Shown here: one piece after another, positions 5,901-64,000 of the stretch
Position numbering within the stretch: the stretch's first letter is position 1
How the letters are laid out: each line of letters starts with the position of its first letter
DNA from: Odiellus spinosus
Lineage: Eukaryota > Arthropoda > Arachnida > Opiliones > Phalangiidae
Reading direction: 5' to 3'
DNA: 64,000 nt
Assembly: GCA_963920705.1 (NCBI GenBank)
Contig: CAWUCO010000268.1
Location: 3,782,001-3,846,000, forward strand
The notes under the pieces: generated by a model
What the model was told of the DNA's origin: nothing
The model's input: only the letters and a program-made list of their open reading frames with translations
Database searches by the model: none
Made by a program: the position numbers and the translations under genes

Positions 5901-6060
5901 CTCTTGTTTTTTAGATAGACCAATATTTGCTCTTTCGAGTGGTCTTAATTTTTGTCTAAATCGCTTAAAAATCAAAAGTTTTGTGTCCATTTGAATCCAA
6001 TAATCTTGGATTTTTAAGTGTTTTTGCTTTATTTTAACCAATTTTATATTTGTCACAATT

Positions 6061-31800: not shown

Positions 31801-32871
31801 TTCAAAAATCCGTTGAAAAACAAGAAAAATATGGCCAATTCAAGAAACCATACAATATCAAAATAGTCAAATTTCAGATTTTCAAAATTCGCTTTTTGAT
31901 ATTAGATGTTTTTTGAATTGTCCATATTTTCCATGTTTTTCAAGGGATTTTCCAAAACTCATGTTTTTTAGATAGACCAATATTTGCTCTTTCGAGTAGT
32001 CTTAATTTTGTCTAAATCGCTTAAAAATCAAAAGTTTTGTGTCCATTTGAATCCAATAATCTTGGATTTTTAAGTGTTTTTGCTTTATTTTAACCAATTT
32101 TATATTTGTCACAATTTTGCAATTTATACAAAACCAAAGTCATTCGAAAGAGCAATTAATGGACAGTCTAAATAACAAGAGTTTTCAAAAATCCGTTGAA
32201 AAACAAGAAAAATATGGCCAATTCAAGAAATCATACAATATCAAAATAGTCAAATTTCAGATTTTAAAAATTCGCTTTTTGATATTAGATGCTTTTTGAA
32301 TTGTCCATATTTTCCATGTTTTTCAACGGATTTTCCAAAACTCTTGATTTTCAGATAGACCAATATTTGCTCTTTCGAGTGGTCTTAATTTTGTCTAAAT
32401 CGCTTAAAAATCAAAAGTTTTGTGTCCATTTGAATCCTATAATCTTGGATTTTTAAGTGTTTTTGCTTTATTTTAACCAATTTTATATTTGTCACAATTT
32501 TGCAATTTAGACAAAACCAAAGTCATTCGAAAGAGCAATTAATGGACAGTCTAAATAACAAGAGTTTTCAAAAATCCGTTGAAAAACAAGAAAAATATGG
32601 CCAATTCAAGAAATCATACAATATCAAAATAGTCAAATTTCAGATTTTAAAAATTCGCTTTTTGATATTAGATGCTTTTTGAATTGTCCATATTTTCCAT
32701 GTTTTTCAACGGATTTTCCAAAACTCTTGTTTTTTAGATAGACCAATATTTGCTCTTTCGAGTGGTCTTAATTTTTGTCTAAATCGCTTAAAAATCAAAA
32801 GTTTTGTGTCCATTTGAATCCAATAATCTTGGATTTTTAAGTGTTTTTGCTTTATTTTAACCAATTTTATA

Positions 32872-35500: not shown

Positions 35501-35938
35501 AATCCAATAATCTTGGATTTTTAAGTGTTTTTGCTTTATTTTAACCAATTTTATATTTGTCACAATTTTCCAATTTAGACAAAACCAAAGTCATTCGAAA
35601 GAGCAATTAATGGACAGTCTAAATAACAAGAGTTTTCAAAAATCCGTTGAAAAACAAGAAAAATATGGCCAATTCAAGAAACAATACAATATCAAAATAG
35701 TCAAATTTCAGATTTTCAAAATTCGCTTTTTGATATTAGATGCTTTTTGAATTGTCCATATTTTCCATGTTTTTCAACGGATTTTCCAAAACTCTTGTTT
35801 TTTAGATAGACCAATATTTGCTCTTTCGAGTGGTCTTAATTTTGTCTAAATCGCTTAAAAATCAAACGTTTTGTGTCCATTTGAATCCAATAATCTTGGA
35901 TTTTTAAGCGTTTTTGCTTAATTTTAACCAATTTTATA

Positions 35939-40534: not shown

Positions 40535-40917
40535 TTTGTCACAATTTTGCAATTTAGACAAAACCAAAGTCATTCGAAAGAGCAATTAATGGACAGTCTA
40601 AATAACAAGAGTTTTCAAAAATCCGTTGAAAAACAAGAAAAATATGGCCAATTCAAGAAACCATAGAATATCAAAATAGTCAAATTTCAGATTTTAAAAA
40701 TTCGCTTTTTGATATTAGATGCTTATTGAATTGTCCATATTTTCCATGTTTTTCAACGGATTTTCCAAAACTCTTGTTTTTTAGATAGACCAATATTTGC
40801 TATTTCGAGTGGTCTTAATTTTGTCTAAATCGCTTAAAAATCAAAAGTTTTGTGTCCATTTGAATCCAATAATCTTGGATTTTTAAGCGTTTTTGCTTAA
40901 TTTTAACCAATTTTATA

Positions 40918-43900
40918 TTGGTCACAATTTTGCAATTTAGACAAAACCAAAGTCATTCGAAAGAGCAATTAATGGACAGTCTAAATAACAAGAGTTTTCA
41001 AAAATCCGTTGAAAAACAAGAAAAATATGGCCAATTCAAGAAACCATACAATATCAAAATAGTCAAATTTCAGATTTTCAAAATTCGCTTTTTGATATTA
41101 GATGTTTTTTGAATTGTCCATATTTTCCATGTTTTTCAAGGGATTTTCCAAAACTCATGTATTTTAGATAGACCAATATTTGCTCTTTCGAGTAGTCTTA
41201 ATTTTGTCTAAATCGCTTAAAAATCAAAAGTTTTGTGTCCATTTGAATCCAATAATCTTGGATTTTTAAGTGTTTTTGCTTTATTTTAACCAATTTTATA
41301 TTTGTCACAATTTTGCAATTTAGACAAAACCAAAGTCATTCGAAAGAGCAATTAATGGACAGTCTAAATAACAAGAGTTTTCAAAAATTCGTTGAAAAAC
41401 AAGAAAAATATGGCCAATTCAAGAAATCATACAATATCAAAATAGTCAAATTTCAGATTTTAAAAATTCGCTTTTTGATATTAGATGCTTTTTGAATTGT
41501 CCATATTTTCCATGTTTTTCAACGGATTTTCCAAAACTCTTGATTTTCAGATAGACCAATATTTGCTCTTTCGAGTGGTCTTAATTTTGTCTAAATCGCT
41601 TAAAAATCAAAAGTTTTGTGTCCATTTGAATCCTATAATCTTGGATTTTTAAGTGTTTTTGCTTTATTTTAACCAATTTTATATTTGTCACAATTTTGCA
41701 ATTTAGACAAAACCAAAGTCATTCGAAAGAGCAATTAATGGACAGTCTAAATAACAAGAGTTTTCAAAAATCCGTTGAAAAACAAGAAAAATATGGCCAA
41801 TTCAAGAAATCATACAATATCAAAATAGTCAAATTTCAGATTTTAAAAATTCGCTTTTTGATATTAGATGCTTTTTGAATTGTCCATATTTTCCATGTTT
41901 TTCAACGGATTTTCCAAAACTCTTGTTTTTTAGATAGACCAATATTTGCTCTTTCGAGTGGTCTTAATTTTGTCTAAATCGCTTAAAAATCAAAAGTTTT
42001 GTGTCCATTTGAATCCAATAATCTTGGATTTTTAAGCGTTTTTGCTTAATTTTAACCAATTTTATATTGGTCACAATTTTGCAATTTAGACAAAACCAAA
42101 GTCATTCGAAAGAGCAATTAATGGACAGTCTAAATAACAAGAGTTTTCAAAAATCCGTTGAAAAACAAGAAAAATATGGCCAATTCAAGAAACCATACAA
42201 TATCAAAATAGTCAAATTTCAGATTTTCAAAATTCGCTTTTTGATATTAGATGTTTTTTGAATTGTCCATATTTTCCATGTTTTTCAAGGGATTTTCCAA
42301 AATTCATGTTTTTTAGATAGACCAATATTTGCTCTTTCGAGTAGTCTTAATTAGGTCTAAATCGCTTAAAAATCAAAAGTTTTGTGTCCATTTGAATCCA
42401 ATAATCTTGGATTTTTAAGCGTTTTTGCTTAATTTTAACCAATTTTATATTGGTCACAATTTTGCAATTTAGACAAAACCAAAGTCATTCGAAAGAGCAA
42501 TTAATGGACAGTCTAAATAACAAGAGTTTTCAAAAATCCGTTGAAAAACAAGAAAAATATGGCCAATTCAAGAAACCATACAATATCAAAATAGTCAAAT
42601 TTCAGATTTTCAAAATTCGCTTTTTGATATTAGATGTTTTTTGAATTGTCCATATTTTCCATGTTTTTCAAGGGATTTTCCAAAACTCATGTATTTTAGA
42701 TAGACCAATATTTGCTCTTTCGAGTAGTCTTAATTTTGTCTAAATCGCTTAAAAATCAAAAGTTTTGTGTCCATTTGAATCCAATAATCTTGGATTTTTA
42801 AGTGTTTTTGCTTTATTTTAACCAATTTTATATTTGTCACAATTTTGCAATTTAGACAAAACCAAAGTCATTCGAAAGAGCAATTAATGGACAGTCTAAA
42901 TAACAAGAGTTTTCAAAAATTCGTTGAAAAACAAGAAAAATATGGCCAATTCAAGAAATCATACAATATCAAAATAGTCAAATTTCAGATTTTAAAAATT
43001 CGCTTTTTGATATTAGATGCTTTTTGAATTGTCCATATTTTCCATGTTTTTCAACGGATTTTCCAAAACTCTTGATTTTCAGATAGACCAATATTTGCTC
43101 TTTCGAGTGGTCTTAATTTTGTCTAAATCGCTTAAAAATCAAAAGTTTTGTGTCCATTTGAATCCTATAATCTTGGATTTTTAAGTGTTTTTGCTTTATT
43201 TTAACCAATTTTATATTTGTCACAATTTTGCAATTTAGACAAAACCAAAGTCATTCGAAAGAGCAATTAATGGACAGTCTAAATAACAAGAGTTTTCAAA
43301 AATTCGTTGAAAAACAAGAAAAATATGGCCAATTCAAGAAATCATACAATATCAAAATAGTCAAATTTCAGATTTTAAAAATTCGCTTTTTGATATTAGA
43401 TGCTTTTTGAATTGTCCATATTTTCCATGTTTTTCAACGGATTTTCCAAAACTCTTGATTTTCAGATAGACCAATATTTGCTCTTTCGAGTGGTCTTAAT
43501 TTTGTCTAAATCGCTTAAAAATCAAAAGTTTTGTGTCCATTTGAATCCTATAATCTTGGATTTTTAAGTGTTTTTGCTTTATTTTAACCAATTTTATATT
43601 TGTCACAATTTTGCAATTTAGACAAAACCAAAGTCATTCGAAAGAGCAATTAATGGACAGTCTAAATAACAAGAGTTTTCAAAAATCCGTTGAAAAACAA
43701 GAAAAATATGGCCAATTCAAGAAATCATACAATATCAAAATAGTCAAATTTCAGATTTTAAAAATTCGCTTTTTGATATTAGATGCTTTTTGAATTGTCC
43801 ATATTTTCCATGTTTTTCAACGGATTTTCCAAAACTCTTGTTTTTTAGATAGACCAATATTTGCTCTTTCGAGTGGTCTTAATTTTGTCTAAATCGCTTA

Positions 43901-44747
43901 AAAATCAAAAGTTTTGTGTCCATTTGAATCCAATAATCTTGGATTTTTAAGCGTTTTTGCTTAATTTTAACCAATTTTATATTGGTCACAATTTTGCAAT
44001 TTAGACAAAACCAAAGTCATTCGAAAGAGCAATTAATGGACAGTCTAAATAACAAGAGTTTTCAAAAATCCGTTGAAAAACAAGAAAAATATGGCCAATT
44101 CAAGAAACCATACAATATCAAAATAGTCAAATTTCAGATTTTCAAAATTCGCTTTTTGATATTAGATGTTTTTTGAATTGTCCATATTTTCCATGTTTTT
44201 CAAGGGATTTTCCAAAATTCATGTTTTTTAGATAGAACAATATTTGCTCTTTCGAGTAGTCTTAATTAGGTCTAAATCGCTTAAAAATCAAAAGTTTTGT
44301 GTCCATTTGAATCCAATAATCTTGGATTTTTAAGTGTTTTTGCTTTATTTTAACCAATTTTATATTTGTCACAATTTTCCAATTTAGACAAAACCAAAGT
44401 CATTCGAAAGAGCAATTAATGGACAGTCTAAATAACAAGAGTTTTCAAAAATCCGTTGAAAAACAAGAAAAATATGGCCAATTCAAGAAACAATACAATA
44501 TCAAAATAGTCAAATTTCAGATTTTCAAAATTCGCTTTTTGATATTAGATGCTTTTTGAATTGTCCATATTTTCCATGTTTTTAAACGGATTTTCCAAAA
44601 CTCTTGTTTTTTAGATAGACCAATATTTGCTCTTTCGAGTGGTCTTAATTTTGTCTAAATCGCTTAAAAATCAAAAGTTTTGTGTCCATTTGAATCCAAT
44701 AATCTTGGATTTTTAAGCGTTTTTGCTTAATTTTAACCAATTTTATA
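40918..44747 (+). repeat. Tetramer and pentamer HOR units side by side
   Basis: CATGTATTTTAG occurs at 41,156 and 42,688 (1,532 bp apart), marking two units. The first runs CCATAC, AAATTCG, TCATAC, then CCATAC with AATTCATG and TTAATTAGGTC. The second has the AAATTCG monomer twice in succession (42,845 and 43,228), making five monomers before the same AATTCATG/TTAATTAGGTC monomer at 43,982. The extra copy is a single-monomer tandem duplication inside the HOR. Confidence 0.85.
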
Positions 44748-45909
44748 TTGGTCACAATTTTGCAATTTAGACAAAACCAAAGTCATTCGAAAGAGCAATT
44801 AATGGACAGTCTAAATAACAAGAGTTTTCAAAAATCCGTTGAAAAACAAGAAAAATATGGCCAATTCAAGAAACCATACAATATCAAAATAGTCAAATTT
44901 CAGATTTTCAAAATTCGCTTTTTGATATTAGATGTTTTTTGAATTGTCCATATTTTCCATGTTTTTCAAGGGATTTTCCAAAATTCATGTTTTTTAGATA
45001 GACCAATATTTGCTCTTTCGAGTAGTCTTAATTAGGTCTAAATCGCTTAAAAATCAAAAGTTTTGTGTCCATTTGAATCCTATAATCTTGGATTTTTAAA
45101 TGTTTTTGCTTTATTTTAACCAATTTTATATTTGTCACAATTTTGCAATTTAGACAAAACCAAAGTCATTCGAAAGAGCAATTAATGGACAGTCTAAATA
45201 ATAAGAGTTTTCAAAAATCCGTTGAAAACCAAGAAAAATATGGCCAATTCAAGAAATCATAGAATATCAAAATAGTCAAATTTCAGATTTTAAAAATTCG
45301 CTTTTTGATATTAGATGCTTATTGAATTGTCCATATTTTCCATGTTTTTCAACGGATTTTCCAAAACTCTTGTTTTTTAGATAGACCAATATTTGCTATT
45401 TCGAGTGGTCTTAATTTTGTCTAAATCGCTTAAAAATCAAAAGTTTTGTGTCCATTTGAATCCAATAATCTTGGATTTTTAAGTGTTTTTGCTTAATTTT
45501 AACCAATTTTATATTTGTCACAATTTTGCAATTTAGACAAAACCAAAGTCATTCGAAAGAGCAATTAATGGACAGTCTAAATAATAAGAGTTTTCAAAAA
45601 TCCGTTGAAAAACAAGAAAAATATGGCCAATTCAAGAAACCATACAATATCAAAATAGTCAAATTTCAGATTTTAAAAATTCGCTTTTTGATATTAGATG
45701 TTTTTTGAATTGTCCATATTTTCCATGTTTTTCAACGGATTTTCCAAAACTCTTGTTTTTTAGATAGACCAATATTTGCTCTTTCGAGTGGTCTTAATTT
45801 TTGTCTAAATCGCTTAAAAATCAAAAGTTTTGTGTCCATTTGAATCCAATAATCTTGGATTTTTAAGTGTTTTTGCTTAATTTTAACCAATTTTATATTT
45901 GTCACAATT

Positions 45910-48900
45910 TTGCAATTTAGACAAAACCAAAGTCATTCGAAAGAGCAATTAATGGACAGTCTAAATAATAAGAGTTTTTAAAAATCCGTTGAAAAACAAG
46001 AAAAATATGGCCAATTCAAGAAACCATACAATATCAAAATAGTCAAATTTCAGATTTTCAAAATTCGCTTTTTGATATTAGATGCTTTTTGAATTGTCCA
46101 TATTTTCCATGTTTTTCAACGGATTTTCCAAAACTCTTGTTTTTTAGATAGACCAATATTTGCTCTTTCGAGTGGTCTTAATTTTTGTCTAAATCGCTTA
46201 AAAATCAAAAGTTTTGTGTCCATTTGAATCCAATAATCTTGGATTTTTAAGTGTTTTTGCTTAATTTTAACCAATTTTATATTTGTCACAATTTTGCAAT
46301 TTAGACAAAACCAAAGTCATTCGAAAGAGCAATTAATGGACAGTCTAAATAATAAGAGTTTTCAAAAATCCGTTGAAAAACAAGAAAAATATGGCCAATT
46401 CAAGAAACCATACAATATCAAAATAGTCAAATTTCAGATTTTCAAAATTCGCTTTTTGATATTAGATGCTTTTTGAATTGTCCATATTTTCCATGTTTTT
46501 CAACGGATTTTCCAAAACTCTTGTTTTTTAGATAGACCAATATTTGCTCTTTCGAGTGGTCTTAATGTTGTCTAAATCGCTTAAAAATCAAAAGTTTTGT
46601 GTCCATTTGAATCCAATAATCTTGGATTTTTAAGCGTTTTTGCTTAATTTTAACCAATTTTATATTGGTCACAATTTTGCAATTTAGACAAAACCAAAGT
46701 CATTCGAAAGAGCAATTAATGGACAGTCTAAATAACAAGAGTTTTCAAAATCCGTTGAAAAACAAGAAAAATATGGCCAATTCAAGAAACCATACAATAT
46801 CAAAATAGTCAAATTTCAGATTTTCAAAATTCGCTTTTTGATATTAGATGTTTTTTGAATTGTCCATATTTTCCATGTTTTTCAAGGGATTTTCCAAAAT
46901 TCATGTTTTTTAGATAGACCAATATTTGCTCTTTCGAGTAGTCTTAATTAGGTCTAAATCGCTTAAAAATCAAAAGTTTTGTGTCCATTTGAATCCTATA
47001 ATCTTGGATTTTTAAATGTTTTTGCTTTATTTTAACCAATTTTATATTTGTCACAATTTTGCAATTTAGACAAAACCAAAGTCATTCGAAAGAGCAATTA
47101 ATGGACAGTCTAAATAATAAGAGTTTTTAAAAATCCGTTGAAAAACAAGAAAAATATGGCCAATTCAAGAAACCATACAATATCAAAATAGTCAAATTTC
47201 AGATTTTCAAAATTCGCTTTTTGATATTAGATGCTTTTTGAATTGTCCATATTTTCCATGTTTTTCAACGGATTTTCCAAAACTCTTGTTTTTTAGATAG
47301 ACCAATATTTGCTCTTTCGAGTGGTCTTAATTTTTGTCTAAATCGCTTAAAAATCAAAAGTTTTGTGTCCATTTGAATCCAATAATCTTGGATTTTTAAG
47401 TGTTTTTGCTTAATTTTAACCAATTTTATATTGGTCACAATTTTGCAATTTAGACAAAACCAAAGTCATTCGAAAGAGCAATTAATGGACAGTCTAAATA
47501 ACAAGAGTTTTCAAAATCCGTTGAAAAACAAGAAAAATATGGCCAATTCAAGAAACCATACAATATCAAAATAGTCAAATTTCAGATTTTCAAAATTCGC
47601 TTTTTGATATTAGATGTTTTTTGAATTGTCCATATTTTCCATGTTTTTCAAGGGATTTTCCAAAATTCATGTTTTTTAGATAGACCAATATTTGCTCTTT
47701 CGAGTAGTCTTAATTAGGTCTAAATCGCTTAAAAATCAAAAGTTTTGTGTCCATTTGAATCCTATAATCTTGGATTTTTAAATGTTTTTGCTTTATTTTA
47801 ACCAATTTTATATTTGTCACAATTTTGCAATTTAGACAAAACCAAAGTCATTCGAAAGAGCAATTAATGGACAGTCTAAATAATAAGAGTTTTTAAAAAT
47901 CCGTTGAAAAACAAGAAAAATATGGCCAATTCAAGAAACCATACAATATCAAAATAGTCAAATTTCAGATTTTCAAAATTCGCTTTTTGATATTAGATGC
48001 TTTTTGAATTGTCCATATTTTCCATGTTTTTCAACGGATTTTCCAAAACTCTTGTTTTTTAGATAGACCAATATTTGCTCTTTCGAGTGGTCTTAATTTT
48101 TGTCTAAATCGCTTAAAAATCAAAAGTTTTGTGTCCATTTGAATCCAATAATCTTGGATTTTTAAGTGTTTTTGCTTAATTTTAACCAATTTTATATTTG
48201 TCACAATTTTGCAATTTAGACAAAACCAAAGTCATTCGAAAGAGCAATTAATGGACAGTCTAAATAATAAGAGTTTTCAAAAATCCGTTGAAAAACAAGA
48301 AAAATATGGCCAATTCAAGAAACCATACAATATCAAAATAGTCAAATTTCAGATTTTCAAAATTCGCTTTTTGATATTAGATGCTTTTTGAATTGTCCAT
48401 ATTTTCCATGTTTTTCAACGGATTTTCCAAAACTCTTGTTTTTTAGATAGACCAATATTTGCTCTTTCGAGTGGTCTTAATGTTGTCTAAATCGCTTAAA
48501 AATCAAAAGTTTTGTGTCCATTTGAATCCAATAATCTTGGATTTTTAAGCGTTTTTGCTTAATTTTAACCAATTTTATATTGGTCACAATTTTGCAATTT
48601 AGACAAAACCAAAGTCATTCGAAAGAGCAATTAATGGACAGTCTAAATAACAAGAGTTTTCAAAATCCGTTGAAAAACAAGAAAAATATGGCCAATTCAA
48701 GAAACCATACAATATCAAAATAGTCAAATTTCAGATTTTCAAAATTCGCTTTTTGATATTAGATGTTTTTTGAATTGTCCATATTTTCCATGTTTTTCAA
48801 GGGATTTTCCAAAATTCATGTTTTTTAGATAGACCAATATTTGCTCTTTCGAGTAGTCTTAATTAGGTCTAAATCGCTTAAAAATCAAAAGTTTTGTGTC

Positions 48901-48973
48901 CATTTGAATCCTATAATCTTGGATTTTTAAATGTTTTTGCTTTATTTTAACCAATTTTATATTTGTCACAATT
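45910..48973 (+). repeat. Trimer-dimer-trimer HOR block (1,149 + 766 + 1,149 bp)
   Basis: Trimer 45,910-47,058 contains an AGAGTTTTTAAAAATCC monomer, a TTAATGTTGTC monomer (about 46,565) and a TTGGTCAC monomer with a one-base loss (TCAAAATCC, about 46,745). Dimer 47,059-47,824 has the first and third types only. Trimer 47,825-48,973 repeats all three, with TTAATGTTGTC at about 48,480. Each block ends with the rare TTTTTAAATGTTTTTGC. The middle block is the trimer minus its central monomer. Confidence 0.85.
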
Positions 48974-50929
48974 TTGCAATTTAGACAAAACCAAAGTCAT
49001 TCGAAAGAGCAATTAATGGACAGTCTAAATAATAAGAGTTTTCAAAAATCCGTTGAAAAACAAGAAAAATATGGCCAATTCAAGAAATCATAGAATATCA
49101 AAATAGTCAAATTTCAGATTTTCAAAATTCGCTTTTTGATATTAGATGCTTTTTGAATTGTCCTTATTTTCAATGTTTTTCAACGGATTTTCCAAAACTC
49201 TTGTTTTTTAGATAGACCAATATTTGCTCTTTCGAGTGGTCTTAATTTTGTCTAAATCGCTTAAAAATCAAAAGTTTTGTGTCCATTTGAATCCAATAAT
49301 CTTGGATTTTTAAGCGTTTTTGCTTTATTTTAACCAATTTTATATTTGTCACAATTTTGCAATTTAGACAAAACCAAAGTCATTCGAAAGAGCAATTAAT
49401 GGACAGTCTAAATAATAAGAGTTTTCAAAAATCCGTTTAAAAACAAGAAAAATATGGCCAATTCAAGAAATCATAGAATATCAAAATAGTCAAATTTCAG
49501 ATTTTAAAAATTCTCTTTTTGATATTAGATGTTTTTTGAATTGGCTATATTTTCCATGTTTTTCAACGGATTTTCCAAAACTCTTGTTTTTTAGATAGAC
49601 CAATATTTGCTCTTTCGAGTGGTCTTAATTTTGTCTAAATCGCTTAAAAATCAAAAGTTTTGTGTCCATTTGAATCCAATAATCTTGGATTTTTAAGTGT
49701 TTTTGCTTTATTTTAACCAATTTTATATTTGTCACAATTTTGCAATTTAGACAAAACCAAAGTCATTCGAAAGAGCAATTAATGGACAGTCTAAATAATA
49801 AGAGTTTTCAAAAATCCGTTGAAAAACAAGAAAAATATGGCCAATTCAAGAAATCATAGAATATCAAAATAGTCAAATTTCAGATTTTAAAAATTCGCTT
49901 TTTGATATTAGATGTTTTTTGAATTGGCTATATTTTCCATGTTTTTCAACGGATTTTCCAAAACTCTTGTTTTTTAGATAGACCAATATTTGCTCTTTCG
50001 AATAGTCTTAATTTTGTCTAAATCGCTTAAAAATCAAAAGTTTTGTGTCCATTTGAATCCAATAATCTTGGATTTTTAAGTGTTTTTGCTTTATTTTAAC
50101 CAATTTTATATTTGTCACAATTTTGCAATTTAGACAAAACCAAAGTCATTCGAAAGAGCAATTAATGGACAGTCTAAATAATAAGAGTTTTCAAAAATCC
50201 GTTGAAAAACAAGAAAAATATGGCCAATTCAAGAAATCATAGAATATCAAAATAGTCAAATTTCAGATTTTCAAAATTCGCTTTTTGATATTAGATGCTT
50301 TTTGAATTGTCCTTATTTTCAATGTTTTTCAACGGATTTTCCAAAACTCTTGTTTTTTAGATAGACCAATATTTGCTCTTTCGAGTGGTCTTAATTTTGT
50401 CTAAATCGCTTAAAAATCAAAAGTTTTGTGTCCATTTTAATCCAATAATCTTGGATTTTTAAGCGTTTTTGTTTAATTTTAACCAATTTTATATTTGTCA
50501 CAATTTTGCAATTTAGACAAAACCAAAGTCATTCGAAAGAGCAATTAATGGACAGTCTAAATAATAAGAGTTTTCAAAAATCCGTTGAAAAACAAGAAAA
50601 ATATGGCCAATTCAAGAAATCATAGAATATCAAAATAGTCAAATTTCAGATTTTCAAAATTCGCTTTTTGATATTAGATGCTTTTTGAATTGTCCATATT
50701 TTCAATGTTTTGCAACGGATTTTCCAAAACTCTTGTTTTTTAGATAGACCAATATTTGCTCTTTCGAGTGGTCTTAATTTTGTCTAAATCGCTTAAAAAT
50801 CAAAAGTTTTGTGTCCATTTGAATCCAATAATCTTGGATTTTTAAGTGTTTTTGCTTTATTTTAACCAATTTTATATTTGTCACAATTTTGCAATTTAGA
50901 CAAAACCAAAGTCATTCGAAAGAGCAATT

Positions 50930-53270
50930 AATGGACAGTCTAAATAATAAGAGTTTTCAAAAATCCGTTTAAAAACAAGAAAAATATGGCCAATTCAAGA
51001 AATCATAGAATATCAAAATAGTCAAATTTCAGATTTTAAAAATTCGCTTTTTGATATTAGATGTTTTTTGAATTGGCTATATTTTCCATGTTTTTCAACG
51101 GATTTTCCAAAACTCTTGTTTTTTAGATAGACCAATATTTGCTCTTTCGAGTGGTCTTAATTTTGTCTAAATCGCTTAAAAATCAAAAGTTTTGTGTCCA
51201 TTTGAATCCAATAATCTTGGATTTTTAAGTGTTTTTGCTTTATTTTAACCAATTTTATATTTGTCACAATTTTGCAATTTAGACAAAACCAAAGTCATTC
51301 GAAAGAGCAATTAATGGACAGTCTAAATAATAAGAGTTTTCAAAAATCCGTTGAAAAACAAGAAAAATATGGCCAATTCAAGAAATCATAGAATATCAAA
51401 ATAGTCAAATTTCAGATTTTCAAAATTCGCTTTTTGATATTAGATGCTTTTTGAATTGTCCATATTTTCAATGTTTTTCAACGGATTTTCCAAAACTCTT
51501 GTTTTTTAGATAGACCAATATTTGCTCTTTCGAGTAGTCTTAATTTTGTCTAAATTGCTTAAAAATCAAAAGTTTTGTGTCCATTTGAATCCAATAATCT
51601 TGGATTTTTAAGTGTTTTTGCTTAGTTTTAACCAATTTTATATTTGTCACAATTTTGCAATTTAGACAAAACCAAAGTTATTCGAAAGAGCAATTAATGG
51701 ACAGTCTAAATAACAAGAGTTTTCAAAAATCCGTTGAAAAACAAGAAAAATATGGCCAATTCAAGAAATCATAGAATATCAAAATAGTCAAATTTCAGAT
51801 TTTCAAAATTCGCTTTTTGATATTAGATGTTTTTTGAATTGTCCATATTTTCCATGTTTTTCAACGGATTTTCCAAAACTCTTGATTTTCAGATAGACCA
51901 ATATTTGCTCTTTCGAGTGGTCTTAATTTTGTCTAAATCGCTTAAAAATCAAAAGTTTTGTGTCCATTTGAATCCAATAATCTTGGATTTTTAAGTGTTT
52001 TTGCTTTATTTTAACCGATTTTATATTTGTCACAATTTTGCAATTTAGACAAAACCAAAGTCATTCGAAAGAGCAATTAATGGACAGTCTAAATAATAAG
52101 AGTTTTCAAAAATCCGTTTAAAAACAAGAAAAATATGGCCAATTCAAGAAATCATAGAATATCAAAATAGTCAAATTTCAGATTTTAAAAATTCGCTTTT
52201 TGATATTAGATGTTTTTTGAATTGGCTATATTTTCCATGTTTTTCAACGGATTTTCCAAAACTCTTGTTTTTTAGATAGACCAATATTTGCTCTTTCGAG
52301 TGGTCTTAACTTTGTCTAAATCGCTTAAAAATCAAAAGTTTTGTGTCCATTTGAATCCAATAATCTTGGATTTTTAAGTGTTTTTGCTTTATTTTAACCA
52401 ATTTTATATTTGTCACAATTTTGCAATTTAGACAAAACCAAAGTCATTCGAAAGAGCAATTAATGGACAGTCTAAATAATAAGAGTTTTCAAAAATCCGT
52501 TGAAAAACAAGAAAAATATGGCCAATTCAAGAAATCATAGAATATCAAAATAGTCAAATTTCAGATTTTCAAAATTCGCTTTTTGATATTAGATGCTTTT
52601 TGAATTGTCCATATTTTCAATGTTTTTCAACGGATTTTCCAAAACTCTTGTTTTTTAGATAGACCAATATTTGCTCTTTCGAGTAGTCTTAATTTTGTCT
52701 AAATTGCTTAAAAATCAAAAGTTTTGTGTCCATTTGAATCCAATAATCTTGGATTTTTAAGTGTTTTTGCTTAGTTTTAACCAATTTTATATTTGTCACA
52801 ATTTTGCAATTTAGACAAAACCAAAGTTATTCGAAAGAGCAATTAATGGACAGTCTAAATAACAAGAGTTTTCAAAAATCCGTTGAAAAACAAGAAAAAT
52901 ATGGCCAATTCAAGAAATCATAGAATATCAAAATAGTCAAATTTCAGATTTTCAAAATTCGCTTTTTGATATTAGATGTTTTTTGAATTGTCCATATTTT
53001 CCATGTTTTTCAACGGATTTTCCAAAACTCTTGATTTTCAGATAGACCAATATTTGGTCTTTCGAGTGGTCTTAATTTTGTCTAAATCGCTTAAAAATCA
53101 AAAGTTTTGTGTCCATTTGAATCCAATAATCTTGGATTTTTAAGTGTTTTTGCTTTATTTTAACCGATTTTATATTTGTCACAATTTTGCAATTTAGACA
53201 AAACCAAAGTCATTCGAAAGAGCAATTAATGGACAATCTAAATAATAAGAGTTTTCAAAAATCCGTTTAA
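50930..53270 (+). repeat. Two tandem 1,149-bp trimer HOR copies
   Basis: CCGTTTAAAAAC occurs at about 50,964, 52,113 and 53,262. AAAGTTATTCG occurs at 51,674 and 52,823, and TTAACCGATTTTA at about 52,011 and 53,160. All are 1,149 bp (three monomers) apart. A related dimer step follows: AAAGTTA recurs at 53,589 and 54,355, each 766 bp on. Confidence 0.8.
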
Positions 53271-54120
53271 AAACAAGAAAAATATGGCCAATTCAAGAAA
53301 TCATAGAATATCAAAATAGTCAAATTTCAGATTTTAAAAATTCGCTTTTTGATATTAGATGTTTTTTGAATTGGCTATATTTTCCATGTTTTTCAACGGA
53401 TTTTCCAAAACTCTTGTTTTTTAGATAGACCAATATTTGCTCTTTCGAGTGGTCTTAATTTTGTCTAAATCGCTTAAAAATCAAAAGTTTTGTGTCCATT
53501 TGAATCCAATAATCTTGGATTTTTAAGTGTTTTTGCTTAGTTTTAACCAATTTTATATTTGTCACAATTTTGCAATTTAGACAAAACCAAAGTTATTCGA
53601 AAGAGCAATTAATGGACAGTCTAAATAACAAGAGTTTTCAAAAATCCGTTGAAAAACAAGAAAAATATGGCCAATTCAAGAAATCATAGAATATCAAAAT
53701 AGTCAAATTTCAGATTTTCAAAATTCGCTTTTTGATATTAGATGTTTTTTGAATTGTCCATATTTTCCATGTTTTTCAACGGATTTTCCAAAACTCTTGA
53801 TTTTCAGATAGACCAATATTTGCTCTTTCGAGTGGTCTTAATTTTGTCTAAATCGCTTAAAAATCAAAAGTTTTGTGTCCATTTGAATCCAATAATCTTG
53901 GATTTTTAAGTGTTTTTGCTTAATTTTAACCAATTTTATATTTGTCACAATTTTGCAATTTAGACAAAACCAAAGTCATTCGAAAGAGCAATTAATGGAC
54001 AGTCTAAATAATAAGAGTTTTCAAAAATCCGTTGAAAAACAAGAAAAATATGGCCAATTCAAGAAATCATAGAATATCAAAATAGTCAAATTTCAGATTT
54101 TCAAAATTCGCTTTTTGATA

Positions 54121-54800
54121 TTAGATCCTTTTTGAATTGTCCATATTTTCAATGTTTTTCAACGGATTTTCCAAAACTCTTGTTTTTTAGATAGACCAAT
54201 ATTTGCTCTTTCGAGTAGTCTTAATTTTGTCTAAATTGCTTAAAAATCAAAAGTTTTGTGTCCATTTGAATCCAATAATCTTGGATTTTTAAGTGTTTTT
54301 GCTTAGTTTTAACCAATTTTATATTTGTCACAATTTTGCAATTTAGACAAAACCAAAGTTATTCGAAAGAGCAATTAATGGACAGTCTAAATAACAAGAG
54401 TTTTCAAAAATCCGTTGAAAAACAAGAAAAATATGGCCAATTCAAGAAATCATAGAATATCAAAATAGTCAAATTTCAGATTTTCAAAATTCGCTTTTTG
54501 ATATTAGATGTTTTTTGAATTGTCCATATTTTCCATGTTTTTCAACGGATTTTCCAAAACTCTTGATTTTCAGATAGACCAATATTTGCTCTTTCGAGTG
54601 GTCTTAATTTTGTCTAAATCGCTTAAAAATCAAAAGTTTTGTGTCCATTTGAATCCAATAATCTTGGATTTTTAAGTGTTTTTGCTTAATTTTAACCAAA
54701 TTTATATTTGTCACAATTTTGCAATTTAGACAAAACCAAAGTCATTCGAAAGAGCAATTAATGGACAGTTTAAATAATAAGAGTTTTCAAAAATCCGTTG
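54121..54800 (+). repeat. Block duplicated 3,446 bp downstream (about 57,567-58,246)
   Basis: TTAGATCCTTTTTG, a change of GATG to GATC, is seen only at 54,121 and 57,567. ACAGTTTAAAT occurs at 54,765 and 58,211, and AACCAAATTTATA precedes each. The offset of 3,446 bp equals nine monomers. Beyond about 54,850 the copies differ (GGCTATATT here, GTCCATATT there). Confidence 0.8.
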
Positions 54801-56639
54801 AAAAACAAGAAAAATATGGCCAATTCAAGAAATCATAGAATATCAAAATAGTCAAATTTCAGATTTTAAAAATTCGCTTTTTGATATTAGATGTTTTTTG
54901 AATTGGCTATATTTTCCATGTTTTTCAACGGATTTTCCAAATCTCTTGTTTTTTAGATAGACCAATATTTGCTCTTTCGAGTGGTCTTAATTTTGTCTAA
55001 ATCGCTTAAAAATCCAAAGTTTTGTGTCCATTTGAATCCAATAATCTTGGATTTTTAAGCGTTTTTGCTTAATTTTAACCAATTTTATATTGGTCACAAT
55101 TTTGCAATTAGACAAAACCAAAGTTATTCGAAAGAGCAATTAATGGACAGTCTAAATAACAAGAGTTTTCAAAAATCCGTTGAAAAACAAGAAAAATATG
55201 GCCAATTCAAGAAATCATAGAATATCAAAATAGTCAAATTTCAGATTTTCAAAATTCGCTTTTTGATATTAGATGTTTTTTGAATAGTCCATATTTTCCA
55301 TGTTTTTCAACGGATTTTCCAAAACTCTTGATTTTCAGATAGACCAATATTTGCTCTTTCGAGTGGTCTTAATTTTGTCTAAATCGCTTAAAAATCAAAA
55401 GTTTTGTGTCCATTTTAATCCAATAATCTTGGATTTTTAAGCGTTTTTGCTTAATTTTAACCAATTTTATATTTGTCACAATTTTGCAATTTAGACAAAA
55501 CCAAAGTCATTCGAAAGAGCAATTAATGGACAGTCTAAATAATAAGAGTTTTCCAAAATCCGTTGAAAAACAAGAAAAATAAGGCCAATTCAAGAAATCA
55601 TAGAATATCAAAATAGTCAAATTTCAGATTTTCAAAATTCGCTTTTTGATATTAGATGTTTTTTGAATTGTCCATATTTTCCATGTTTTTCAACGGATTT
55701 TCCAAAACTCTTGATTTTCAGATAGACCAATATTTGCTCTTTCGAGTGGTCTTAATTTTGTCTAAATCGCTTAAAAATCAAAAGTTTTGTGTCCATTTTA
55801 ATCCAATAATCTTGGATTTTTAAGCGTTTTTGCTTAATTTTAACCAAATTTATATTTGTCACAATTTTGCAATTTAGACAAAGCCAAAGTCATTCGAAAG
55901 AGCAATTAATGGACAGTCTAAATAATAAGAGTTTTCAAAAATCCGTTGAAAAACAAGAAAAATATGGCCAATTCAAGAAATCATAGAATATCAAAATAGT
56001 CAAATTTCAGATTTTCAAAATTCGCTTTTTGATATTAGATGTTTTTTGAATTGTCCATATTTTCCATGTTTTTCAACGGATTTTCCAAAACTCTTGATTT
56101 TCAGATAGACCAATATTTGCTCTTTCGAGTGGTCTTAATTTTGTCTAAATCGCTTAAAAATCAAAAGTTTTGTGTCCATTTTAATCCAATAATCTTGGAT
56201 TTTTAAGCGTTTTGGCTTAATTTTAACCAATTTTATATTTGTCACAATTTTGCAATTTAGACAAAACCAAAGTCATTCGAAAGAGCAATTAATGGACAGT
56301 CTAAATAACAAGAGTTTTCAAAAATCCGTTGAAAAACAAGAAAAATATGGCCAATTCAAGAAATCATAGAATATCAAAATAGTCAAATTTCAGATTTTAA
56401 AAATTCGCTTTTTGATATTAGATGTTTTTTGAATTGGCTATATTTTCCATGTTTTTCAACGGATTTTCCAAAACTCTTGTTTTTTAGATAGACCAATATC
56501 TGCTCTTTCGAGTGGTCTTAATTTTGTCTAAATCGCTTAAAAATCAAAACTTTTGTGTCCATTTTAATCCAATAATCTTGGATTTTTAAGTGTTTTTGCT
56601 TTATTTTAACCAATTTTATATTTGTCACAATTTTGCAAT

Positions 56640-59600
56640 TTAGACAAAACCAAAGTCATTCGAAAGAGCAATTAATGGACAGTCTAAATAATAAGAGTTT
56701 TCAAAAATCCGTTGAAAAACAAGAAAAATATGGCCAATTCAAGAAATCATAGAATATCAAAATAATCAAATTTCAGATTTTAAAAATTCGCTTTTTGATA
56801 TTAGATGCTTTTTGAATTGTACATATTTTCAATGTTTTTCAACGGATTTTCCAAAACTCTTGTTTTATAGATAGACCAATATTTGCTCTTTCGAGTGGTC
56901 TTAATTTTGTCTAAATCGCTTAAAAATCAAAAGTTTTGTGTCCATTTTAATCCAATAATCTTGGATTTTTAAGCGTTTTGGCTTAATTTTAACCAATTTT
57001 ATATTTGTCACAATTTTGCAATTTAGACAAAACCAAAGTCATTCGAAAGAGCAATTAATGGACAGTCTAAATAACAAGAGTTTTCAAAAATCCGTTGAAA
57101 AACAAGAAAAATATGGCCAATTCAAGAAATCATAGAATATCAAAATAGTCAAATTTCAGATTTTAAAAATTCGCTTTTTGATATTAGATGTTTTTTGAAT
57201 TGGCTATATTTTCCATGTTTTTCAACGGATTTTCCAAAACTCTTGTTTTTTAGATAGACCAATATTTGCTCTTTCGAGTGGTCTTAATTTTGTCTAAATC
57301 GCTTAAAAATCAAAAGTTTTGTGTCCATTTGAATCCAATAATCTTGGATTTTTAAGTGTTTTTGCTTTATTTTAACCAATTTTATATTTGTCACAATTTT
57401 GCAATTTAGACAAAACCAAAGTCATTCGAAAGAGCAATTAATGGACAGTCTAAATAATAAGAGTTTTCAAAAATCCGTTGAAAAACAAGAAAAATATGGC
57501 CAATTCAAGAAATCATAGAATATCAAAATAGTCAAATTTCAGATTTTCAAAATTCGCTTTTTGATATTAGATCCTTTTTGAATTGTCCATATTTTCAATG
57601 TTTTTCAACGGATTTTCCAAAACTCTTGTTTTTTAGATAGACCAATATTTGCTCTTTCGAGTAGTCTTAATTTTGTCTAAATTGCTTAAAAATCAAAAGT
57701 TTTGTGTCCATTTGAATCCAATAATCTTGGATTTTTAAGTGTTTTTGCTTAGTTTTAACCAATTTTATATTTGTCACAATTTTGCAATTTAGACAAAACC
57801 AAAGTTATTCGAAAGAGCAATTAATGGACAGTCTAAATAACAAGAGTTTTCAAAAATCCGTTGAAAAACAAGAAAAATATGGCCAATTCAAGAAATCATA
57901 GAATATCAAAATAGTCAAATTTCAGATTTTCAAAATTCGCTTTTTGATATTAGATGTTTTTTGAATTGTCCATATTTTCCATGTTTTTCAACGGATTTTC
58001 CAAAACTCTTGATTTTCAGATAGACCAATATTTGCTCTTTCGAGTGGTCTTAATTTTGTCTAAATCGCTTAAAAATCAAAAGTTTTGTGTCCATTTGAAT
58101 CCAATAATCTTGGATTTTTAAGTGTTTTTGCTTAATTTTAACCAAATTTATATTTGTCACAATTTTGCAATTTAGACAAAACCAAAGTCATTCGAAAGAG
58201 CAATTAATGGACAGTTTAAATAATAAGAGTTTTCAAAAATCCGTTGAAAAACAAGAAAAATATGGCCAATTCAAGAAATCATAGAATATCAAAATAGTCA
58301 AATTTCAGATTTTCAAAATTCGCTTTTTGATATTAGATGTTTTTTGAATTGTCCATATTTTCCATGTTTTTCAACGGATTTTCCAAAACTCTTGATTTTC
58401 AGATAGACCAATATTTGCTCTTTCGAGTGGTCTTAATTTTGTCTAAATCGCTTAAAAATCAAAAGTTTTGTGTCCATTTTAATCCAATAATCTTGGATTT
58501 TTAAGCGTTTTTGCTTAATTTTAACCAAATTTATATTTGTCACAATTTTGCAATTTAGACAAAGCCAAAGTCATTCGAAAGAGCAATTAATGGACAGTCT
58601 AAATAATAAGAGTTTTCAAAAATCCGTTGAAAAACAAGAAAAATATGGCCAATTCAAGAAATCATAGAATATCAAAATAGTCAAATTTCAGATTTTCAAA
58701 ATTCGCTTTTTGATATTAGATGTTTTTTGAATTGTCCATATTTTCCATGTTTTTCAACGGATTTTCCAAAACTCTTGATTTTCAGATAGACCAATATTTG
58801 CTCTTTCGAGTGGTCTTAATTTTGTCTAAATCGCTTAAAAATCAAAAGTTTTGTGTCCATTTTAATCCAATAATCTTGGATTTTTAAGCGTTTTGGCTTA
58901 ATTTTAACCAATTTTATATTTGTCACAATTTTGCAATTTAGACAAAACCAAAGTCATTCGAAAGAGCAATTAATGGACAGTCTAAATAATAAGAGTTTTC
59001 AAAAATCCGTTGAAAAACAAGAAAAATATGGCCAATTCAAGAAATCATAGAATATCAAAATAATCAAATTTCAGATTTTAAAAATTCGCTTTTTGATATT
59101 AGATGCTTTTTGAATTGTACATATTTTCAATGTTTTTCAACGGATTTTCCAAAACTCTTGTTTTTTAGATAGACCAATATTTGCTCTTTCGAGTGGTCTT
59201 AATTTTGTCTAAATCGCTTAAAAATCAAAAGTTTTGTGTCCATTTTAATCCAATAATCTTGGATTTTTAAGCGTTTTGGCTTAATTTTAACCAATTTTAT
59301 ATTTGTCACAATTTTGCAATTTAGACAAAACCAAAGTCATTCGAAAGAGCAATTAATGGACAGTCTAAATAACAAGAGTTTTCAAAAATCCGTTGAAAAA
59401 CAAGAAAAATATGGCCAATTCAAGAAATCATAGAATATCAAAATAGTCAAATTTCAGATTTTAAAAATTCGCTTTTTGATATTAGATGTTTTTTGAATTG
59501 GCTATATTTTCCATGTTTTTCAACGGATTTTCCAAAACTCTTGTTTTTTAGATAGACCAATATTTGCTCTTTCGAGTGGTCTTAATTTTGTCTAAATCGC

Positions 59601-60502
59601 TTAAAAATCAAAAGTTTTGTGTCCATTTGAATCCAATAATCTTGGATTTTTAAGTGTTTTTGCTTTATTTTAACCAATTTTATATTTGTCACAATTTTGC
59701 AATTTAGACAAAACCAAAGTCATTCGAAAGAGCAATTAATGGACAGTCTAAATAATAAGAGTTTTCAAAAATCCGTTGAAAAACAAGAAAAATATGGCCA
59801 ATTCAAGAAATCATAGAATATCAAAATAGTCAAATTTCAGATTTTCAAAATTCGCTTTTTGATATTAGATGCTTTTTGAATTGTCCATATTTTCAATGTT
59901 TTTCAACGGATTTTCCAAAACTCTTGTTTTTTAGATAGACCAATATTTGCTCTTTCGAGTAGTCTTAATTTTGTCTAAATGCTTAAAAATCAAAAGTTTT
60001 GTGTCCATTTGAATCCAATAATCTTGGATTTTTAAGTGTTTTTGCTTAGTTTTAACCAATTTTATATTTGTCACAATTTTGCAATTTAGACAAAACCAAA
60101 GTTATTCGAAAGAGCAATTAATGGACAGTCTAAATAACAAGAGTTTTCAAAAATCCGTTGAAAAACAAGAAAAATATGGCCAATTCAAGAAATCATAGAA
60201 TATCAAAATAGTCAAATTTCAGATTTTCAAAATTCGCTTTTTGATATTAGATGTTTTTTGAATTGTCCATATTTTCCATGTTTTTCAACGGATTTTCCAA
60301 AACTCTTGATTTTCAGATAGACCAATATTTGCTCTTTCGAGTGGTCTTAATTTTGTCTAAATCGCTTAAAAATCAAAAGTTTTGTGTCCATTTGAATCCA
60401 ATAATCTTGGATTTTTAAGTGTTTTTGCTTAATTTTAACCAAATTTATATTTGTCACAATTTTGCAATTTAGACAAAACCAAAGTCATTCGAAAGAGCAA
60501 TT
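56640..60502 (+). repeat. Nested duplication, offset 2,297 bp (six monomers)
   Basis: About 1.57 kb at 56,640-58,205 matches 58,937-60,502. Paired markers are AAAATAATCAAA, TGTACATATT (56,819 and 59,116), GCGTTTTGGC (about 56,976 and 59,273), GGCTATATT (about 57,212 and 59,509), AAAGTTATTCG (57,801 and 60,098) and ACCAAATTT (58,141 and 60,438). Private differences such as GTTTTATAG at about 56,865 and GATCC versus GATGC arose in single copies. The AAGCCAAAGT marker (55,881 and 58,562, offset 2,681 bp) shows another overlapping event. Confidence 0.8.
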
Positions 60503-60820
60503 AATGGACAGTCTAAATAATAAGAGTTTTCAAAAATCCGTTGAAAAACAAGAAAAATATGGCCAATTCAAGAAATCATAGAATATCAAAATAGTCAAAT
60601 TTCAGATTTTCAAAATTCGCTTTTTGATATTAGATGTTTTTTGAATTGGCTATATTTTCCATGTTTTTCAACGGATTTTCCAAAACTCTTGATTTTCAGA
60701 TAGACCAATATTTGCTCTTTCGAGTGGTCTTAATTTTGTCTAAATCGCTTAAAAATCAAAAGTTTTGTGTCCATTTTAATCCAATAATCTTGGATTTTTA
60801 AGCGTTTTTGCTTAATTTTA

Positions 60821-63118
60821 ACCAAATTTATATTTGTCACAATTTTGCAATTTAGACAAAACCAAAGTCATTCGAAAGAGCAATTAATGGACAGTCTAAA
60901 TAATAAGAGTTTTCAAAAATCCGTTGAAAAACAAGAAAAATATGGCCAATTCAAGAAATCATAGAATATCAAAATAGTCAAATTTCAGATTTTCAAAATT
61001 CGCTTTTTGATATTAGATGTTTTTTGAATTGTCCATATTTTCCATGTTTTTCAACGGATTTTCCAAAACTCTTGATTTTCAGATAGACCAATATTTGCTC
61101 TTTCGAGTGGTCTTAATTTTGTCTAAATCGCTTAAAAATCAAAAGTTTTGTGTCCATTTTAATCCAATAATCTTGGATTTTTAAGCGTTTTGGCTTAATT
61201 TTAACCAATTTTATATTTGTCACAATTTTGCAATTTAGACAAAACCAAAGTCATTCGAAAGAGCAATTAATGGACAGTCTAAATAACAAGAGTTTTCAAA
61301 AATCCGTTGAAAAACAAGAAAAATATGGCCAATTCAAGAAATCATAGAATATCAAAATAGTCAAATTTCAGATTTTAAAAATTCGCTTTTTGATATTAGA
61401 TGTTTTTTGAATTGGCTATATTTTCCATGTTTTTCAACGGATTTTCCAAAACTCTTGTTTTTTAGATAGACCAATATTTGCTCTTTCGAGTGGTCTTAAT
61501 TTTGTCTAAATCGCTTAAAAATCAAAAGTTTTGTGTCCATTTTAATCCAATAATCTTGGATTTTTAAGTGTTTTTGCTTTATTTTAACCAATTTTATATT
61601 TGTCACAATTTTGCAATTTAGACAAAACCAAAGTCATTCGAAAGAGCAATTAATGGACAGTCTAAATAATAAGAGTTTTCAAAAATCCGTTGAAAAACAA
61701 GAAAAATATGGCCAATTCAAGAAATCATAGAATATCAAAATAATCAAATTTCAGATTTTAAAAATTCGCTTTTTGATATTAGATGCTTTTTGAATTGTAC
61801 ATATTTTCAATGTTTTTCAACGGATTTTCCAAAACTCTTGATTTTCAGATAGACCAATATTTGCTCTTTCGAGTGGTCTTAATTTTGTCTAAATCGCTTA
61901 AAAATCAAAAGTTTTGTGTCCATTTTAATCCAATAATCTTGGATTTTTAAGCGTTTTTGCTTAATTTTAACCAAATTTATATTTGTCACAATTTTGCAAT
62001 TTAGACAAAACCAAAGTCATTCGAAAGAGCAATTAATGGACAGTCTAAATAATAAGAGTTTTCAAAAATCCGTTGAAAAACAAGAAAAATATGGCCAATT
62101 CAAGAAATCATAGAATATCAAAATAGTCAAATTTCAGATTTTCAAAATTCGCTTTTTGATATTAGATGTTTTTTGAATTGTCCATATTTTCCATGTTTTT
62201 CAACGGATTTTCCAAAACTCTTGATTTTCAGATAGACCAATATTTGCTCTTTCGAGTGGTCTTAATTTTGTCTAAATCGCTTAAAAATCAAAAGTTTTGT
62301 GTCCATTTTAATCCAATAATCTTGGATTTTTAAGCGTTTTGGCTTAATTTTAACCAATTTTATATTTGTCACAATTTTGCAATTTAGACAAAACCAAAGT
62401 CATTCGAAAGAGCAATTAATGGACAGTCTAAATAACAAGAGTTTTCAAAAATCCGTTGAAAAACAAGAAAAATATGGCCAATTCAAGAAATCATAGAATA
62501 TCAAAATAGTCAAATTTCAGATTTTAAAAATTCGCTTTTTGATATTAGATGTTTTTTGAATTGGCTATATTTTCCATGTTTTTCAACGGATTTTCCAAAA
62601 CTCTTGTTTTTTAGATAGACCAATATTTGCTCTTTCGAGTGGTCTTAATTTTGTCTAAATCGCTTAAAAATCAAAAGTTTTGTGTCCATTTTAATCCAAT
62701 AATCTTGGATTTTTAAGTGTTTTTGCTTTATTTTAACCAATTTTATATTTGTCACAATTTTGCAATTTAGACAAAACCAAAGTCATTCGAAAGAGCAATT
62801 AATGGACAGTCTAAATAATAAGAGTTTTCAAAAATCCGTTGAAAAACAAGAAAAATATGGCCAATTCAAGAAATCATAGAATATCAAAATAATCAAATTT
62901 CAGATTTTAAAAATTCGCTTTTTGATATTAGATGCTTTTTGAATTGTACATATTTTCAATGTTTTTCAACGGATTTTCCAAAACTCTTGTTTTTTAATTA
63001 GACCAATATTTGCTCTTTCGAGTGGTCTTAATTTTGTCTAAATCGCTTAAAAATCAAAAGTTTTGTGTCCATTTGAATCCAATAATCTTGGTTTTTTAAG
63101 CGTTTTTGCTTAATTTTA
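60821..63118 (+). repeat. Two tandem 1,149-bp trimer HOR copies at the right edge
   Basis: ACCAAATTT (60,821 and 61,970), GCGTTTTGGC (61,186 and 62,335) and TGTACATATT (61,796 and 62,945) all repeat at exactly 1,149 bp. The trimer order is an AACCAAATTT/GATTTTCAG monomer, a GGCTATATT monomer and a TGTACATATT monomer. Copies are nearly identical until about 62,985, where the second acquires private changes. Confidence 0.85.
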
Positions 63119-63630
63119 ACCAATTTTATATTTGTCACAATTTGGCAATTTAGACAAAACCAAAGTCAATCGAAAGAGCAATTAATGGACAGTCTAAATA
63201 ATAAGAGTTTTCAAAAATCCGTTGAAAAACAAGAAAAATATGGCCAATTCAAGAAATCATAGAATATCAAAATAGTCAAATTTCAGATTTTAAAAATTCG
63301 CTTTTTGATATTAGATGCTTTTTGAATTGTACATATTTTCAATGTTTTTCAACGGATTTTCCAAAACTCTTGTTTTTTAGATAGACCAATATTTGCTCTT
63401 TCGAGTGGTCTTAATTTTGTCTAAATCGCTTAAAAATCAAAAGTTTTGTGTCCATTTGAATCCAATAATCTTGGATTTTTAAGTGTTTTTGCTTAATTTT
63501 AACCAATTTTATATTTGTCACAATTTTGCAATTTAGACAAAACCAAAGTCATTCGAAAGAGCAATTAATGGACAGTCTAAATAATAAGAGTTTTCAAAAA
63601 TCCGTTGAAAAACAAGAAAAATATGGCCAC
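62985..63630 (+). repeat. Terminal forward monomers with private substitutions
   Basis: Within about 200 bp several changes appear that are not seen elsewhere: TTTTTTAATTAGACC (about 62,991), CTTGGTTTTTTAAG (about 63,088), TTTGGCAATTT (about 63,141) and AAAGTCAATCG (about 63,163). The following monomer has GGCCACTTC (about 63,625) just before the orientation switch. A cluster of unique changes is typical of an array edge that no longer exchanges with the interior. Confidence 0.75.
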
Positions 63631-63740
63631 TTCAAAAAACATCTAATATCAAAAAGCGAATTTTAAAAATCTGAAATTTGACTATTTTGATATTCTATGA
63701 TTTCTTGAATTCACAATATTTTTCTTGTTTTTCAACGGAT
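63631..63740 (-). repeat. Inverted partial monomer
   Basis: The segment beginning TTCAAAAAACATCTAATATC reads as the reverse complement of the monomer from GATATTAGATG back to ATCCGTTG. It includes TGAAATTTGACTATTTTG and ends TTTTTCAACGGAT at 63,740. It carries a private change, GAATTCACAATATT for GAATTGGCCATATT, arguing against a trivial copy of neighbouring sequence. The entry point lies in ATATGGCCA-TTCAA, shared by both orientations. Confidence 0.85.
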
Positions 63741-63820
63741 TCAAGAAACCATACAATATCAAAATAGTCAAATTTCAGATTTTAAAAATTCGCTTTTTGA
63801 TATTAGATGTTTTTTGAATT
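63741..63820 (+). repeat. Short forward partial monomer between inverted segments
   Basis: TCAAGAAACCATACAATATC restores the forward orientation and runs to GATGTTTTTTGAATT. It has CCATAC, not the TCATAG typical of neighbouring right-domain monomers, so its source was probably a different monomer class. The left junction (CGGAT to TCAAG) is an abrupt join within the monomer; the right junction lies in the palindromic TTGAATTGGCC. Confidence 0.85.
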
Positions 63821-64000
63821 GGCCATATTTTTCTTGTTTTTCAACGGATTTTTGAAAACTCTTATTATTTAGACTGTCCATTAATTGCTCTTTCGAATGA
63901 CTTTGGTTTTGTCTAAATTGCAAAATTGTGACAAATATAAAATTGGTTAAAATAAAGCAAAAACACTTAAAAATCCAAGATTATTGAATTCAAATGGACA
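63821..64000 (-). repeat. Reverse-orientation satellite continuing past the window end
   Basis: From GGCCATATTTTTCTTG onward the sequence is the reverse complement of a monomer: CTCTTATTATTTAGACTG, GCTCTTTCGAATGACTTT, TTGCAAAATTGTGAC, GGTTAAAATAAAGC, then CACTTAAAAATCCAAG. It reaches the window end still inside the monomer. The array probably continues in minus orientation beyond 64,000. Confidence 0.88.

Follow-up and report, generated by a model that had tools for sequence, protein, structure and literature searches.

A palindromic turn at the right end of a 383-bp satellite array in Odiellus spinosus, a candidate macro-dyad inversion site

Near the right end of a long satellite array of the arachnid Odiellus spinosus, the repeat changes strand three times in quick succession. 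Is this a real turn of the array, and by what route could such a junction arise? We addressed both questions in the window, meaning the whole stretch of 64,000 nucleotides analysed here. The junction is probably real, and a single palindromic turn of a known kind. As to its origin, we read it from the sequence, at a probability of about 0.5, as a macro-dyad inversion site: an inverted-repeat strand switch at a module boundary would have turned the array, and a 111-bp inverted templated insertion would have elaborated it.

A plus-strand array of two-dyad monomers

Tandem Repeats Finder places a single array at 414-63741, with a period of 383, 165.3 copies and 97% matches. Orientation was mapped by two-strand Viterbi alignment of the entire window to the consensus monomer (Table 1). 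The plus-strand array proper (414-63627) is 98.4% identical to that consensus and its monomers, compared all against all, are 97.6% identical; the G+C content of the window is about 27%. Over the same interval, no flip was found at either of two jump penalties.

Table 1 Features of the satellite array and of its right-end junction (window coordinates; identities are to the consensus, from the Viterbi alignment).
Feature	Position	Strand	Description
383-bp satellite array	414..63627	+	165 monomers, none reversed; both edges at consensus phase 1/383, i.e. CAATTCAA
Right-end subfamily run	49076..63627	+	38 monomers, all 13T/18G; stops at the turn
Palindrome left arm (P, then inverted M')	63449..63712	+	63449 simply mirrors the end of the window
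Minus run: inverted module M' (consensus 85 to 1) and 383 to 358	63628..63738	-	94.6% identity
Spacer of the gap-free palindrome (its hairpin loop)	63713..63736		24 nt; axis at 63724.5
Palindrome right arm (M, then P')	63737..64000	-	ends with the window
Plus module M (consensus 3 to 77)	63739..63813 (module end 63821)	+	97.3% identity; haplotype 13C/18C
Final minus run (consensus 8 to 1, then 383 to 205)	63814..64000	-	98.9% identity

The consensus monomer matches its own reverse complement at 71% (276/388). It is composed of two imperfect dyads, M (consensus 1-85) and P (86-383), whose self-complementarity reaches 66/87 and 214/308 (69.5%), respectively, with 82/100 in the outer 100 bp of P. 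The two ends of M are marked by 8-bp inverted repeats without mismatch, CAATTCAA and TTGAATTG; at the M/P boundary the consensus reads AAAATATGGCCAATTCAA on one strand and AAAATATGGACAATTCAA on the other. When folded, one ordinary plus monomer (62479-62861, 383 bases) reaches -80.9 kcal/mol (z -13). Where P begins, the trinucleotide after TTGAATTG (around 501-509 in the first monomer) differs among monomers: the five commonest forms listed include TCC (142), GCT (13) and TAC (5).

Within the array, an exact segment of 3,561 bp is present twice at 18709-28782 with an offset of 6,513 bp, or 17 monomers; it is a recent segmental duplication. A smaller duplication lies close to the turn (1,180 bp, offset 1,149, start 60661).

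In the left flank (1-413), the stricter jump penalty gave no satellite match; the laxer one gave partial matches, short scraps of 60-77% identity that we take as noise. The flank holds an imperfect direct repeat at 61-150 (TTAATCAAGTGTATTTCATGTTATTAGT and TTAATTAAGTGTATTTCATGTTGTTAGT), spotted by eye. At 414, the first base of the array is exactly consensus position 1 (CAATTCAA), which belongs to the 18-bp stretch where the right-end turn also lies; we estimate the chance of this coincidence of phase at about 5% (18/383). Rfam returned nine matches on 1-1200, all under the gathering score of their family, and Pfam no match for three of the six short left-flank reading frames. Pattern scans of viral and genome contig collections, neither of them of eukaryote genomes, gave 0 matches. 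Among the titles returned by a text search of the literature with six short monomer stretches, none was on satellite DNA.

One palindrome joins the plus array to a minus run

The junction reads P (+), M' with a 26-nt piece of P' (-), M (+) and P' (-). An earlier note, made from the sequence, had described this plus, minus, plus, minus order, and the mapped coordinates agree with it to within about 8 bases; switch coordinates are themselves uncertain by about 8 bases, owing to the shared 8-mer TTGAATTG/CAATTCAA. No foreign sequence is found at the junction, which is made of satellite only and lies between the plus array and a minus run. On the minus side, only 187 bases of the final run fall in the window, and we therefore infer the minus-strand array from them.

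The three orientation switches are parts of one palindrome. Its arms pair at 257 of 264 positions without gaps, and BLAST of arm against arm gives 256/262 identity with an E-value of 5e-137. Folded as single-stranded DNA, the 552 bases from 63449 to 64000 reach -277 kcal/mol, against a mean of -53.2 kcal/mol for 100 shuffles (z -50). With such an E-value and such a z-score, the palindrome is not due to chance. Two simpler descriptions were rejected: four independent orientation segments, since together they form this one palindrome, and a plain inversion of M within a plus array, since M' is followed by minus P' and not by plus P. We also sought four module-inversion strings on the plus strand of the whole window. 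Three occur once each, all at the junction (63630, 63699 and 63699), and CAATTCAAAAAACATC nowhere; because two of the three matching strings hold junction-private bases, a fair test is provided by just GATTTCTTGAATT (63699) and the missing CAATTCAAAAAACATC.

Within the palindrome, the P|M' and M|P' switches mirror each other. Both fall within the shared ATGGCCAATTCAA/TTGAATTGGCCAT, which bears out the earlier observation that two of the three switches lie in sequence common to both orientations. Each joins a plus position to its minus-strand dyad partner, so that the dyad register of the monomer is kept. If strands were switched at random on the consensus, at least 8 bp would be shared in 0.2% of position pairs; the shared-sequence switches are therefore unlikely to be random. 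The central, third switch has a 3-bp microhomology, ATT: at least 3 bp would be shared in 10.5% of pairs, hence this switch is unremarkable.

Hairpin formation or template switching at the monomer dyad had been put forward as the source of the inversion. The shared sequence and the register kept at P|M' and M|P' agree with that proposal. Its location must be amended: the shared switch site is no dyad centre but the 18-bp boundary of the M and P dyads, where both potential hairpins have their base. This boundary is not the longest shared run, as an exact 18 bp exists deeper within P. The turn is expected to be prone to hairpin or cruciform formation and to recombination; no coding or regulatory function is proposed for it.

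Arm likeness, mixed haplotypes and a possible route to the turn

The likeness of the arms had also been offered as a date for the event, on the grounds that they resemble each other far more than the two arms of the monomer do. That the event is younger than the monomer palindrome stands, and nothing finer does. Between comparable 264-column blocks of the plus strand (P and the next M), the mean number of differing positions is 6.0 (sd 2.65, 13,366 pairs); for adjacent blocks it is 5.25, and 72.5% of all pairs show 7 differences or fewer. With 7 differences in 264, the junction arms are at the usual level of the array: their identity reflects array homogenisation and gives no date for the inversion, and we rejected its use as a clock.

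The differences themselves are informative. Three of the seven (positions 13, 18 and 251) are common array variants, with a common allele in each arm. At the other four (218, 83, 48 and 2, the last edging the central switch), one allele is absent from all 165 monomers. Under a model of random change, with 10 common-variant sites in 264 columns and one base in three, at least three of seven changes would fall on such variants with a probability of about 7e-5, or 0.002 if the linked positions 13 and 18 are counted once; the threshold for a common variant, 16/165, was chosen after inspection of the data. Random monomer pairs differ on average at 4.05 of these ten sites; the arms thus resemble a pair of different monomers.

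The inner modules differ in their affinities. The 38 monomers nearest to the turn are fixed for one haplotype (Table 1); among the other 127, 112 have 18C, and position 13 is mixed (79 T, 48 C). Each of the two alleles carried by the right inner module M is found in 0/38 of these neighbours. Comparing local with other monomers, the log-likelihood is -9.17 for M and +4.65 for M', which over consensus 3-77 is at one mismatch from 24/38 local monomers against 6/127 of the others. Over its 75 positions, M is matched exactly by one monomer, at 45628. Because positions 13 and 18 are linked, the non-local origin of M amounts in effect to one haplotype of a 75-bp module. The P columns fail to separate local from other monomers: P' (-3.14) and the last plus monomer (-3.10) both favour the rest. 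Between the P parts of the arms there are 2 differences in 179, a likeness equalled or surpassed by 141 of 703 local pairs; the best matches of P', at one mismatch, are eight monomers, six of which lie in the local run.

The right arm is not a mirror-copy of its immediate neighbour, a candidate we rejected. The last plus monomer is not the best match: among the 165 it ranks, with ties, 9-30 for P', from which it differs by 2 mismatches against 1 for the best monomer, and 111-143 for M. From a snap-back copy one would expect arms identical except for new mutations, and these are not, although later gene conversion could mimic such a pattern. The short spacer and homology expected of snap-back are present, as the 24-nt loop and ATT, with 8-bp inverted repeats at the module ends. 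Taken together, the common-variant differences between the arms and an M haplotype absent nearby make a fold-back read chimera or a single snap-back copy unlikely. That M carries a non-local haplotype likewise disfavours the simple hairpin copy contained in the earlier proposal.

These results bear on whether the junction is an assembly artefact, in which two satellite contigs, or the two ends of one array, were misjoined facing opposite ways, or a chimeric fold-back read was incorporated. The setting is the hardest case for an assembler, a near-homogeneous array of 63 kb. A fold-back chimera copies one molecule, yet variants common in the array make up three of the seven differences between the arms; there is no need for an arbitrary misjoin to show the ordered 111-bp insert or the dyad register of the shared switches. 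A misjoin along homologous sequence is left untouched by the arguments from variants, insert and register. We regard an artefact as unlikely, but as a reading that has to be taken seriously.

The interval 63628-63738, which takes in M' and the spacer, contains 5 alleles seen in 0/165 monomers, three of them at 63712-63715 and the others at 63630 and 63665. By comparison, none of the 63,085 overlapping array windows of 111 bp holds even 4 singleton alleles. This excess suggests that the inner junction stands outside the homogenised pool, or that it is the product of error-prone synthesis.

The route that we favour would involve two events. In the first, the plus array would exchange strands with an inverted copy, or anneal to it by folding back, at the M/P boundary, where both strands read AAAATATGG(C/A)CAATTCAA; the array would turn with its dyad register kept (P-M | P'). 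In the second, a short-range template switch would exit the plus strand at CAATTCAA (at consensus 383 or, within the shared 8-mer, as far on as 8), copy 111 nt of the opposite strand from a local P-M boundary and return very close to its exit, at position 3, through the 3-bp microhomology. M' and the 26-nt piece of P' would thereby be inserted, and the palindrome at the centre would result. Subsequent turnover within the plus array, with one subfamily spreading to the junction, would account for an M unlike its neighbours. Both events are read back from their product, and their order is an argument from parsimony: as many steps are needed if P switches to M' first and a fold-back with a 24-nt loop comes second. 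Neither event alone accounts for the five private alleles in M' and the spacer.

Processes of both types have been described elsewhere. According to the available text of the study, inverted repeats in yeast single-stranded DNA drive fold-back rearrangement unless their heterology exceeds 25% (PMC10164571); the outer P arms (18%) and M (24%) lie within this limit, and the whole of P (30%) lies beyond it. Short-range template switching has been described in great apes (PMC7954356, in the part available). At self-complementary sequence, fold-back and template switching could yield inverted duplications or templated insertions. Going by the accessible parts of these two papers, fold-back is demonstrated in yeast and template switching is an interpretation of great-ape sequences; at this junction only a product is seen.

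A single replication event could instead have made three serial template switches, from plus to minus at CAATTCAA, from minus to plus at ATT and from plus to minus at TTGAATTG. The three switches, and the sequence shared at each, are found as this account describes, and the mixed haplotypes of M' and M could reflect different templates within one event. It nevertheless demands three switches at once, whereas a palindrome, or a turn with one inverted insertion, explains the mirror symmetry, and it leaves unexplained why M alone is non-local. We consider it improbable.

Array turns in flour beetles and the meaning of the junction

The closest known systems are satellites of Tribolium. In the available part of a study of T. 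madens (PMC13081366), the arrays of TmSat1 and TmSat2 reverse at inversion sites that are both conserved and diverged and were verified on HiFi reads, and ectopic recombination between similar inverted subunits is suggested as the origin of the TmSat2 turns. The same text states that macro-dyads are documented so far in Tribolium alone, and that the dominant satellites of T. castaneum and T. freemani form them too. Our junction is alike in several respects: opposite subarrays meet at an inversion site made of satellite, a diverged copy sits there, and a hairpin is predicted. As with TmSat2, the monomer has a large internal dyad. Monomer length differs, at 383 bp here against 225, 704 and 1264 bp for TmSat1, TmSat2 and TmSat3, as the accessible text gives them. 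One junction is seen here and there are thousands in T. madens, and the turn described here has an extra inverted insert of 111 bp. Arms of several kb would be expected on both sides of a macro-dyad like those of Tribolium; here the left side extends over 63 kb and the right side is cut by the window end at 64,000.

TCAST of T. castaneum, with monomers of 362 and 377 bp in the portion consulted of PMC3411249, is near in size, and array-level dyads occur in both. The TCAST probe primers Tcastan1 and Tcastan2 (PMC7598501) have 0 matches on either strand of the window at up to 3 mismatches; with these sites absent, we rejected TCAST identity for the 383-bp satellite. Palindromic monomers are also cited in the available text of PMC13081366 for the 1061-bp satellite of T. 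brevicornis and the 385-bp satellite of Trichogramma brassicae. Both have long inverted segments in the monomer, as here, a likeness by description alone; the lengths of 385 and 383 bp are no evidence of membership by themselves. Elsewhere, the available parts of a mouse T2T paper and of a nanopore satellite-read paper contain nothing on within-array turns, the part seen of an Edessa paper names macro-dyads in its reference list only, and nearly all literature terms on orientation switches were without a paper.

For the turns INV_1a, INV_1b and INV_2 of T. madens, the text available (PMC13081366) proposes that the turn or hairpin is retained for (peri)centromeric chromatin. By analogy, our junction might be a copy of a recurrent, conserved inversion-site element, spread with macro-dyad cassettes and kept for such a chromatin role. 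Its five private alleles in 111 bp recall the diverged inversion-site subunits reported there. One copy is seen within the window, however, and private alleles may equally mark a single copy that escapes homogenisation. We give this reading, with its cassettes and its role, very little credence; that the junction is an inversion-site element which recurs and is retained by selection in a macro-dyad satellite outside Tribolium is in itself hardly probable. If true, palindromic (peri)centromeric satellites would have come by array-level dyad turns convergently, through repeated origin at one hairpin-base site, CAATTCAA, which is also where the array starts at its left edge.

Array inversions of this kind have already been described for centromere-region repeats of flour beetles. 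Our preferred reading remains a strand switch at the module boundary followed by an inverted insertion. If real, the junction is a base-resolved turn of a satellite array, and its breakpoint is linked to the base of the hairpins inside the monomer; the origin of macro-dyads, by recombination of inverted subunits or by fold-back replication, is therefore testable by breakpoint mapping. It would also suggest that a turn can have different array subfamilies on its two sides, and hence that turns may outlive local array homogenisation.
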